Source: an uncultured Oleiphilus sp.
GTDB taxonomy: Bacteria; Pseudomonadota; Gammaproteobacteria; Pseudomonadales; Oleiphilaceae
Direction of reading: 5' to 3'
DNA: 41,800 bases
Assembly: GCA_913020245.1 (NCBI GenBank)
Contig: CAJWAD010000021.1
Location: 1 to 41,800 of the forward strand
This document shows, piece by piece, positions 25,440 through 30,439 of this stretch (position 1 is its first letter; each line of letters opens with the position of its first letter). A program made the position numbers and the translations under genes. Under the pieces are notes generated by a model that saw nothing but the letters and a program-made list of their open reading frames with translations, ran no database searches and had not been told where the DNA came from.

Positions 25440-26936
25440 CTAGATGAGAACAACGTCATATTGACCTTGGTTATACATTACCTCAACTTGAAATTTAATC
25501 TGTTTGCCAATAAACGTCTCAAGGTCTGCTACGTTATCAGACTCTTCGTCTAATAGACGATCAATAACACTTTGGGAACCCATGACTAAGTAAACAGATG
25601 CGTCGTATGCGCGATTAACGCGAAGAATTTCTCGCATCACTTCATAACATACTGTCTCTGCCGTCTTCATATAACCGGTGCCATCACACACGCTACAGGG
25701 CTCACATAAGGTCTGACCCAGACTCTCCGTCGTGCGCTTGCGGGTCATTTCTACAAGGCCTAGTTCAGACACACAGCTTATACTCGTGCGAGCGTTATCG
25801 CGCTCGAGCATTTTCTCGAACATACGAAGCACCTGACGTTGATGCTCCGCATCTTCCATATCAATGAAATCAAGAATGATAATGCCACCAAGATTCCGAA
25901 GGCGTAGCTGGCGGCCAATCGTTCGCGCCGCCTCAAGATTTGTTTTGAAAATAGTTTCTTCTAAATTACGATGCCCGACAAAGGCTCCCGTGTTTACATC
26001 AATCGTCGTCATCGCCTCAGTTTGGTCGATAATCAGATACCCCCCTGATTTTAGTTGAACTTTTCGACCCAAGGCCTTTTGAATTTCATCTTCGATACTG
26101 TAAAGATCAAAGATTGGACGCTCCCCAGGGTAGTATTCCAAGCGTTCACTAACGTCAATTAAGAAACTTTCTGCGAATTCTTTGACCATAGCGAAACTTT
26201 CGCGCGAGTCGATGCGGATTTTTTCAGACTGTGGTTTTACCAGATCGCGAATTGCGCGCACATGCAGCGGCAAATCTTGATATATTAGTTCACCCACCTG
26301 CGTGGTCTTAATATTTTGCACCAGCTTTAACCACAATTTTTGAAGAAATCGAATGTCCGCTTTAAATTCATCACTACCGGCACCTTCAGCAACTGTACGC
26401 ACAATAAAACCAGCACCCGGTTCTAATGCCTTTGCCCCATCACTTTGCGCGAGTGGTTGCTCTTCCACATCATTACAGCATTCACCGACGAGCTGTCGCA
26501 GACGCTCGCGCTCGGCGTCATCGTCAATGCGCTGAGAAATACCAACATGTCCAACCGAGGGCATGTAAACTAAATAGCGGCTAGCAACAGATAACTGCGT
26601 GGTTAAACGCGCCCCTTTTGTACCAATAGGATCTTTTATAACTTGAACGACTAGCGACTGCCCCTCACGCAGAATCATCGCAATTTCAGTTTGCTTACCT
26701 TCTGCATTTGCATCAACGATATCAGACACATGAATGAAGGCCGAACGCTCCAAACCGACATCGACAAACGCGGCTTCCATACCAGGAAGCACACGCACGA
26801 CTTTACCTTTATAAATATTTCCGACAATACCTCGGCGGCTCGCACGCTCAATGTAAACTTCTTGAAGCATACCGTTTTCAACGACTGCGACGCGCGTCTC
26901 GACGGGGGTTACGTTTATTAGAATTTCTTCACTCAT
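25440..26936 (-). CDS. rng: Ribonuclease G
   Basis: RNase G is an endoribonuclease that trims the 5' end of 16S rRNA and cuts some mRNAs. The 498-residue product has an S1 RNA-binding domain (about 35-125; GIVGNIYKGKVVRVLPGMEAA), the catalytic DNase I-like domain with the metal aspartates in MTTIDVNTGAF and ILDFIDMED, and the zinc-link cysteines in CEPCSVCDGTG. It lacks the long C-terminal scaffold of RNase E. ATG at 26936 gives the family N-terminus MSEEILINVTPVETRVA, with AGGA five bases upstream. The start further out at 26981 adds residues with no family match. Confidence 0.96.
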   Translation of the reverse strand: MSEEILINVTPVETRVAVVENGMLQEVYIERASRRGIVGNIYKGKVVRVLPGMEAAFVDVGLERSAFIHVSDIVDANAEGKQTEIAMILREGQSLVVQVIKDPIGTKGARLTTQLSVASRYLVYMPSVGHVGISQRIDDDAERERLRQLVGECCNDVEEQPLAQSDGAKALEPGAGFIVRTVAEGAGSDEFKADIRFLQKLWLKLVQNIKTTQVGELIYQDLPLHVRAIRDLVKPQSEKIRIDSRESFAMVKEFAESFLIDVSERLEYYPGERPIFDLYSIEDEIQKALGRKVQLKSGGYLIIDQTEAMTTIDVNTGAFVGHRNLEETIFKTNLEAARTIGRQLRLRNLGGIIILDFIDMEDAEHQRQVLRMFEKMLERDNARTSISCVSELGLVEMTRKRTTESLGQTLCEPCSVCDGTGYMKTAETVCYEVMREILRVNRAYDASVYLVMGSQSVIDRLLDEESDNVADLETFIGKQIKFQVEVMYNQGQYDVVLI

Positions 26937-27002
26937 ATACATCCTGAAGCTGTTGCTTCTTATCCTTGAGGTGTCAAGCACTTATGGATAAAGCACCGCC
27001 CA

Positions 27003-27614
27003 TTAAATAACGGTCGCATAGCCGCGTACTCGCAATGCTAAATGTAATTCTTGCAATGGTAAGCCAACAACATTGCTATAACTGCCCTTAATTCTAGACA
27101 CAAACAACGCCCCCAAGCTCTGAATACCATAACCTCCCGCCTTATCAAGCGGCTCTCCGGTTTGCCAGTACGCATTCATTTCGAGCGTCGACAACACTTT
27201 AAATTCGACCTCTGTCTCAACACTGATTAACTCATCAGCTAACTTACCTACACCATGCGGGTTTGCACCAGAAATCGCAATGGTGCTTACAACTTTATGC
27301 GCTCTACCAGAGAGCTTTCTCATCATTTGCATAAAATCCTCATACCCTTTAGGTTTCCCTAAAATGAGCTCATCGACAATAACGGAAGTATCACACGTCA
27401 CGACTATGACGTCCTCAAGGTTTGCGAACTCCTTCGAAAGCTTCAACTTTGCAGTAATTAATTTCTGTTTTGCCATACGTTCTACATAAGTCAATGCTAG
27501 CTCATCCGCATGCGGTGTCTCGTCAATATCCACCGGTCGAACTAAAGCTTGGATCCCGATTTGAGCAAGTAGTTCCCTCCGTCGAGGCGAGGCTGATGCT
27601 AAAACCAGACGCAT
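27003..27614 (-). CDS. Maf-family nucleotide pyrophosphatase (YhdE type)
   Basis: A Maf/Ham1-fold pyrophosphatase of 203 residues, probably acting on dTTP/UTP as in YhdE; it may limit misincorporation and affects division in other bacteria. Motifs: LASASPRRRELL at the N-terminus, the catalytic aspartate in VVTCDTSVIVDELILGKP (cysteine where alanine is common before DT), and DKAGGYGIQ near residue 160. ATG at 27614 overlaps the mreD stop as TAATG; ATG at 27626 is possible. It sits in the common mreBCD-maf-rng order. Confidence 0.94.
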   Translation of the reverse strand: MRLVLASASPRRRELLAQIGIQALVRPVDIDETPHADELALTYVERMAKQKLITAKLKLSKEFANLEDVIVVTCDTSVIVDELILGKPKGYEDFMQMMRKLSGRAHKVVSTIAISGANPHGVGKLADELISVETEVEFKVLSTLEMNAYWQTGEPLDKAGGYGIQSLGALFVSRIKGSYSNVVGLPLQELHLALRVRGYATVI

Positions 27615-28090
27615 TAGCGGACCCATGCGCTAATGCGATCGAGCAGTAGAGCAAAAAACGGCCAAATTAACGCACTCGTAAACGCCTGCAAAAAAATCGA
27701 AATAAGATTGTCAGGAACCGACAATAATGATTCAAAGGTATAAACAATAAACAGGCTCAAAGTCACCAAAAAAAACACCACAAAAGCCTGCTGAGGAATT
27801 GGGAAGAGCTGCACTCTTTTTTGCATTCCAACTAAAAGATATGAGACCAAGCTCAGGGCCAAAGTGTGAATACCAAAATATGAACCGGATACGACATCGA
27901 GTGCCAAACCAATAACAAAGCCGAACCCAACTCCAGCAATATCGGGTCTGCGTAATATCCAATGCACCAGCACAAGGGTTAGCCATTCTGGTCGCGCATT
28001 TGCAATTAAATCTGGGAATCGAATAAACTCCAGCACCAAAGCAAGCACGACACTAATGATTACCGCGATCCAATTTCCGCTCACCCTCAT
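27614..28090 (-). CDS. mreD: Rod shape-determining protein MreD
   Basis: MreD is a small inner-membrane protein of the elongasome that balances MreC and PBP2 activity. The 158-residue product has about five membrane segments, with a PDLIANARPEWLTLVL stretch in the first third, a block seen in gammaproteobacterial MreD (RPDWxxLVLxYW). ATG at 28090 overlaps the mreC stop (ATGA), and its stop overlaps the maf start, so translation is tightly coupled on both sides. Confidence 0.94.
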   Translation of the reverse strand: MRVSGNWIAVIISVVLALVLEFIRFPDLIANARPEWLTLVLVHWILRRPDIAGVGFGFVIGLALDVVSGSYFGIHTLALSLVSYLLVGMQKRVQLFPIPQQAFVVFFLVTLSLFIVYTFESLLSVPDNLISIFLQAFTSALIWPFFALLLDRISAWVR

Positions 28091-29025
28091 GGCGAGATCT
28101 CTTTGGTCGCGACTTCGCCGTTTATCTCATTCGAGGGTGCCGCATCATTGAGCCTAAGTGCAACTTCATCGCGTTCACTATCGGTGCTTTGGCTCTGAAG
28201 CCCTTTTCCATCCTGAAACACTAATAACAGCAAGCTACTTTCGTTTAGCTTTGCCTTAGGCCTAACCTCGACGCGGGCAAACGAGTAACCCGGATCATGC
28301 TCAATACTAGAGACCGTTGCGACCGGATAGCCCTGAGGGAAACGCCCACCCAGACCAGAACTAACAAGCAGATCACCTACCTGAATATCTGCAGTATCCG
28401 GCACATTACCAAGCTCCAGCCGCCCCATTGACCCAACCCCATATGCGATCGCTCGAACCCCATTACGATTGACCTGCACAGGTACCGCATGACGGCCATC
28501 AGAAATCAACAACACACGGCTTGTAAACTCACTTAACTCGATCACTTGTCCCATTAAACCATTATCATCTAGAACAGCTTGTCCTCGATAAACACCGTCC
28601 GATATTCCTTTATCAATGACAATGTACTGGTTATCAACATCAGGACTAACCCCGCTTAATTCAGTAACCACTACATCATCATCGACGACTCGGGAAGCCT
28701 TCAATAGCTCTCTAAGGCGGTTCATCTCAGCCGTCATCGACGCTAATTTTTGTGATTTTCGCTCTAGGACCAAGACCTTGGCTCGCATTGATTCAAGCTC
28801 GTCTTCCAAGGCTTCACGTGAAGTAAATAAGAACGCTATGCCATTGGAGAGACGAAACGGCAGATCACCAAGCCACTGCATTGGCGTAAAGGCGGAACTT
28901 AGCCAATGCCGGGCGTGGTCTAAGTGCTGAAAGCGCACATCCACTACAATTAACGTAATCGAGAGCACGACCGACAACATAAGCCGATAGGCTGTGAAAG
29001 GCCCTTGTACGAATATAGTGCTAAT
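28087..29025 (-). CDS. mreC: Rod shape-determining protein MreC, probable ATT start
   Basis: MreC is a bitopic periplasmic scaffold that activates the RodA-PBP2 pair. Read from ATT at 29025 it has 312 residues: a short cytoplasmic N-terminus STIFVQGPFTAYRL, one membrane helix (about 15-33), a coiled coil (about 70-115) and the two beta-barrel MreC domain (about 125-280), ending in an acidic tail. The N-terminal pattern IF-x-x-GP-...-R is the family one, but the first ATG (28980) lies after it and has no Shine-Dalgarno. GAGGAG (29032-29037) sits six bases before the ATT, and no ATG, GTG or TTG occurs in frame upstream before a stop at 29046. Identity is certain; the start is inferred. Confidence 0.93.
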   Translation of the reverse strand: MSTIFVQGPFTAYRLMLSVVLSITLIVVDVRFQHLDHARHWLSSAFTPMQWLGDLPFRLSNGIAFLFTSREALEDELESMRAKVLVLERKSQKLASMTAEMNRLRELLKASRVVDDDVVVTELSGVSPDVDNQYIVIDKGISDGVYRGQAVLDDNGLMGQVIELSEFTSRVLLISDGRHAVPVQVNRNGVRAIAYGVGSMGRLELGNVPDTADIQVGDLLVSSGLGGRFPQGYPVATVSSIEHDPGYSFARVEVRPKAKLNESSLLLLVFQDGKGLQSQSTDSERDEVALRLNDAAPSNEINGEVATKEISP

Positions 29026-29055
29026 TGATAGCTCCTCTAAAAATCATCCATACAA

Positions 29056-29081
29056 AAATGCGCTGACAAAGCAGCGCATTT
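29056..29081 (-). terminator. Terminator-like hairpin between mreB and mreC
   Basis: A perfect 10-bp inverted repeat (AAATGCGCTG / CAGCGCATTT, loop of six) lies in the 76-base mreB-mreC spacer. Read on the reverse strand it ends in a run of five Ts. It could end or attenuate transcription after mreB so that mreB is made in excess of mreCD, or protect the mreB message 3' end. Confidence 0.65.
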
Positions 29082-29101
29082 CAAACTAATCGAATGTTCC
29101 A

Positions 29102-30439
<1,338 letters not shown>

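Follow-up and report, generated by a model that had tools for sequence, protein, structure and literature searches.

A probable AUU start codon behind a strong Shine-Dalgarno sequence in mreC of an uncultured Oleiphilus, and AUU, AUC or AUA starts of mreC across the Gammaproteobacteria

The window, the whole 41,800-nucleotide stretch of DNA analysed here, carries the mreBCD genes of an uncultured Oleiphilus sp. on its minus strand. mreB (29102..30139) lies upstream of mreC, starts with ATG and matches profile NF010539 with 532.7 bits. mreD (27614..28090) lies downstream, matches TIGR03426 with 106.4 bits and starts with an ATG that overlaps the stop codon of mreC. The gene order mreB-mreC-mreD, followed by maf, rng and yhdP, is that of E. 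coli K-12; mreB and mreD were identified by profile, while maf, rng and yhdP were assigned by reading their sequences. The open reading frame for RNase G (25440-26981, minus strand) is given with GTG 26981 as its first codon; judging by the E. coli protein, its natural start is probably the later ATG of MSEEILINVTP. Between mreB and mreC, the minus strand contains a hairpin, GAAATGCGCTG-CTTTGT-CAGCGCATTTT followed by T (29055..29082), which is a candidate attenuator. Terminator-like hairpins are found at the mreB-mreC junction in 15 of 30 loci under a permissive rule, and the hairpin at 29082-29055 is not listed by a stricter hairpin scan. In several genera of the family, the mreB-mreC junction has a recurring G+C-rich stretch like GCAGCGGCGGTTGTCGTTTT that immediately precedes the Shine-Dalgarno (SD) sequence of mreC (loci L014, L016, L019, L020, L022, L024, L025 and L027).

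Read from an ATT codon at 29025, mreC spans 28087..29025 on the minus strand (312 codons plus stop). Its product matches TIGR00219 and PF04085, the latter with 142 bits against a cut-off of 28. The frame is preceded by an in-frame TGA (29046-29044), continues as TTT TTA GAG GAG CTA TCA ATT AGC, and then runs ACT ATA TTC GTA CAA GGG CCT TTC ACA GCC TAT CGG CTT to an ATG at 28980. The sequence-only reading had stated that the frame is open from 29043 to this first ATG and holds no ATG, GTG or TTG on the way, and the minus-strand reading agrees. The SD sequence GAGGAG (29032..29037, minus strand) is located 6 nt before the ATT (29023..29025), as it had also noted, and pairs with the 16S tail at an energy of -8.3 kcal/mol. 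Starting at ATT adds 15 codons to the protein that starts at ATG 28980. The TIGR00219 score is 187.8 bits with the ATT start and 182.7 bits with the ATG start, both above the cut-off of 92.75, and the match begins at position 3 and position 15, respectively. The N-terminal extension STIFVQGPFTAYRL (28981..29022, minus strand) comprises a cytoplasmic tail and the start of the transmembrane helix. It is the counterpart of MKPIFSRGPSLQIR in E. coli, and F5, G8, P9 and R14 are invariant in the alignment of relatives. The sequence-only reading had matched this extension to the family N-terminus of MreC. The architecture of a tail plus one N-terminal hydrophobic helix is found only with the ATT start. 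The gene combines three features expected of a noncanonical AUH (AUU, AUC or AUA) start: no usable canonical start, a conserved N-terminal AUH codon and a properly spaced SD sequence. Three other candidates nearby were rejected. ATA 29016 has SD pairing of only -1.9 and lies off the conserved border. Two leader ORFs, ATG GAT GAT TTT TAG (29051-29037) and ATG ATT TTT AGA GGA GCT ATC AAT TAG (29047-29021, with its stop overlapping the mreC ATT), are not evident upstream of mreC in the compared relatives and are probably due to chance.

The codon at 29025 was compared with 30 other genomes from the genus, family and order. It is ATT or ATC in all 30, so that chance, a sequencing error or a lost ATG at this position is rejected. 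Most of these relatives have a purine-rich SD sequence upstream of the ATT or ATC, and the protein sequence from the aligned codon follows the pattern I-(K/N/S)-x-(I/L/V)-F-x-x-G-P. Canonical codons near the aligned start are absent or scattered, with none within -12 to +8 codons in 26 of 31 loci. The same test gives ATG for mreB in 29 of 29 scored loci and ATG or GTG for mreD in 31 of 31 loci. infC, the textbook gene with an AUU start, served as a further control; in the same lineages it mostly starts with ATT or ATC behind an SD sequence. The infC of the window's own genome (contig C36) starts with ATT behind an SD sequence and, as in E. coli, its conserved region is not preceded by any canonical start. 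Within the family, divergence at codon positions 1, 2 and 3 is 0.69, 0.68 and 0.71 in the 16 codons upstream of the ATT, with no coding signal; 0, 0 and 0.47 at the start codon itself; and 0.31, 0.21 and 0.65 in codons 2-15, which is a coding pattern. This switch from non-coding to coding divergence indicates that the coding region starts at the ATT codon. The comparison with relatives strongly supports the start that the sequence-only reading had suggested, and ATT 29025 is very likely the start codon of mreC.

The survey was extended to mreC regions sampled across the order and class, with starts called from profile alignments and hand checks. Some 30 of the starts had to be positioned manually, and no call was made for 18 to 19 of the loci sampled. 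The first class-level sample was biased to matches reaching model position 1; to reduce this bias, 60 more loci were added, almost all of them from additional families. Confident calls number 196, from about 160 GTDB families, and comprise 141 AUH starts (61 ATT, 66 ATC and 14 ATA) and 55 canonical starts (ATG, GTG or TTG), 42 of them ATG. AUH starts make up 29 of the 29 calls from the family to which the window belongs (all ATT or ATC), 44 of 60 in the other families of the order and 67 of 103 in the remaining orders. They occur at least once in about 100 of the some 160 families, and five families are mixed. As judged from these alignments, AUU, AUC or AUA with a strong SD sequence is a widespread state in Gammaproteobacteria as defined by GTDB, a class that takes in the betaproteobacteria, and the noncanonical start appears as a class-wide trait of mreC rather than the oddity of a single gene that it had first seemed. 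MreC can do without an AUH start, since 55 of the 196 genomes use a canonical one. In E. coli, Proteus and Aeromonas, the gene starts with ATG and has no good SD sequence; in Acinetobacter, it starts with GTG. ATA makes up 10% of AUH starts and 13.5% of internal isoleucine codons; start-codon usage is close to internal usage, and codon bias therefore adds no support. In loci from the rest of the phylum there is mostly an ATG on offer, and the N-terminus is too diverged for firm calls. Legionella adelaidensis (L202) and one other locus (L137) seem to have neither an AUH nor a nearby canonical start. The annotated mreC of Legionella starts at a GTG within the end of mreB, so its translation may be coupled to that of mreB. 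Three of the uncalled loci (L210, L230 and L245) have ATA, ATC or ATT before the conserved N-terminus, but the codon is displaced and its SD sequence ambiguous.

The strength of the SD sequence differs between the two kinds of start. The median pairing energy is -7.3 kcal/mol for AUH starts and -2.6 kcal/mol for ATG starts. A value of -5 or better is reached by 92% of AUH starts, 24% of ATG starts and 28% of shuffled upstream sequences. The difference has a raw Mann-Whitney p of about 5e-13, and it is also present inside the order (p 0.004) and in other orders (p 6e-10). A test corrected for relatedness is not significant, with three independent pairs on well-supported branches, of which about two agree and none oppose; with too few resolved branches, it has almost no power.

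We propose that an ordinary SD-dependent 30S complex would initiate mreC at ATT 29025, with the initiator fMet-tRNA mispairing at the third base of AUU. The strong SD sequence would load the ribosome, and the near-cognate codon, disfavoured by IF3, would keep the yield low. Because of this combination, the membrane scaffold MreC would be produced at a constant low rate from the mRNA it shares with the filament protein MreB. Lineages with ATG (for example enterobacteria), mostly without a strong SD sequence, look as if they reach an equal output by the opposite route. We infer the decoding by fMet, the repression by IF3 and the low yield from established knowledge (PMC5472188, PMC13009471), and the purpose of such a yield is inferred as well. 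It is suggested by E. coli, in which MreC is present at about 180 copies per cell, and its overexpression is harmful and deforms cells (PMC7793260); noncanonical starts are repressed by IF3 (PMC5472188). The earlier idea of a low, IF3-based MreC level fits both this published work and the trade-off between SD sequence and start codon. We put the probability that the conserved near-cognate AUH start sets a low MreC level from the shared mreBCD transcript at roughly 75%. Acting on the transcript, the hairpin with its T tail at 29082-29055 may reduce mreC expression still more. More tentatively, and with odds somewhat below even, mreC could be an IF3-sensitive target beside infC, with AUU, AUC or AUA holding its translation down in most Gammaproteobacteria; this would tie initiation fidelity to wall elongation and leave the MreC tail unannotated in many genomes.

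Active regulation of mreC by IF3 is possible. The AUH codon would then be a regulatory input, and IF3 activity, changing with growth rate, cold or stress, would tune MreC and couple wall elongation to translation capacity. The ATT start of infC in the same genome (L199) is as expected for IF3 autocontrol, and sigR of Streptomyces is repressed by IF3 through its GTC start (PMC5472188). Such an input, however, would be lost in the many lineages with ATG or GTG in place of AUH, and we consider it unlikely. Slightly less likely still, an AUH codon with a strong SD sequence could be one of several neutral routes to an ordinary initiation rate, with no selection for low MreC. Across prokaryotic genomes, start codon and SD sequence compensate each other, AUG going with a weak SD sequence and non-AUG with a strong one (PMC5622118). 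As this is a general trend, the pattern in mreC need not signal a special set-point, and the lack of significance of the trade-off on the tree points the same way. The compensation reported genome-wide is milder than the trade-off in mreC. Against a neutral route, a switch to AUU occurs in 1 of 61,358 ancestral AUG starts (PMC5622118) and AUH starts are otherwise extremely rare, yet in mreC they are kept across about 100 families. The ATG-started mreC genes, in turn, mostly have no SD sequence, contrary to a demand for high output.

The two remaining alternatives dispute the low set-point at its base, the start codon itself, and both are very improbable. The conserved isoleucine could be an internal residue of a longer MreC that begins at a canonical codon further upstream. 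In 17 of 141 AUH loci, some ATG, GTG or TTG does occur after the upstream stop and before the AUH codon, and the Legionella gene is annotated from a GTG inside mreB. Against this, 124 of the 141 loci have no canonical codon in that interval, in 16 the stop comes no more than one codon before the AUH codon, and the upstream sequence has no coding periodicity; in the window itself, the longer protein is refuted by TGA 29046-29044, with no canonical codon between it and the ATT. Translation from ATG 28980 (28978..28980, minus strand), which would leave the conserved upstream peptide unmade, has in its favour that this is the first canonical start in the frame, but it is contradicted by the missing SD sequence, which the sequence-only reading had noticed and which is borne out by a pairing energy of 0 kcal/mol, by the lack of conservation of the codon among relatives, by coding constraint and invariant residues in the 14 codons upstream, and by its position inside the transmembrane helix, so that the protein would have no cytoplasmic tail and a truncated helix (peak Kyte-Doolittle 1.63 versus 2.04).

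The AUH start also bears on the annotation of MreC in Pseudomonas aeruginosa, where mreC reads TAGGAG-CGGATC-ATC AAA CCG CTA TTC. One public record annotates the gene from a GTG 48 nt downstream of this ATC, and the resulting protein model starts within the transmembrane helix. A structural paper on the P. aeruginosa protein refers to residues Glu188 and Arg190 and assigns both its cytoplasmic and its transmembrane portion to the first 14 residues (PMC8137920). This numbering of E188 and R190 agrees only with the protein model that starts at GTG and conflicts with the one that starts at ATC, suggesting that the cytoplasmic tail was overlooked in the structural study. MreC proteins can thus be annotated too short, the one in that study included.

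Noncanonical starts of this kind are already known from infC, pcnB, sigR and cvfC1, and mreC is an unusually broad addition to them. A report of mreC with a noncanonical start was not found in the literature searched, which covered few subscription journals, and an earlier report is possible. infC resembles mreC in its conserved AUU or AUC start, its strong SD sequence and its frequent misannotation by gene finders, and such a start is present in the infC of the same genome; it differs in that it encodes the very factor that reads the signal and controls itself, whereas mreC encodes a cell-wall scaffold and would be a target only. For pcnB of E. coli, an AUU start is described as translation-limiting (Binns and Masters 2002, as cited in PMC13009471). 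That case, as cited there, is described in E. coli, while the trait in mreC extends over about 100 families and is absent from E. coli, whose mreC has an ATG start. sigR of Streptomyces also combines a noncanonical start with an extensive SD sequence, is conserved in the genus and misannotated in genomes, and its start sets the stoichiometry with a co-transcribed partner (PMC5472188). It differs in using GTC or GTT instead of AUH, in being limited to a single genus and in having been shown by experiment (PMC5472188). cvfC1 (AUU) and ccpN (AUA) of Staphylococcus aureus are similar in their conserved starts and extended SD sequences, and in reporters their starts yield less than AUG (PMC13009471); they are other genes in another phylum, and their starts were shown by Ribo-Ret (PMC13009471). 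AUU-type starts are known in few bacterial genes, and those cited here, except infC, are confined to narrow groups. With an AUH start in about 100 families, mreC amounts to a large natural experiment in which to ask what a cell gains by pairing a bad start codon with a good ribosome-binding site.
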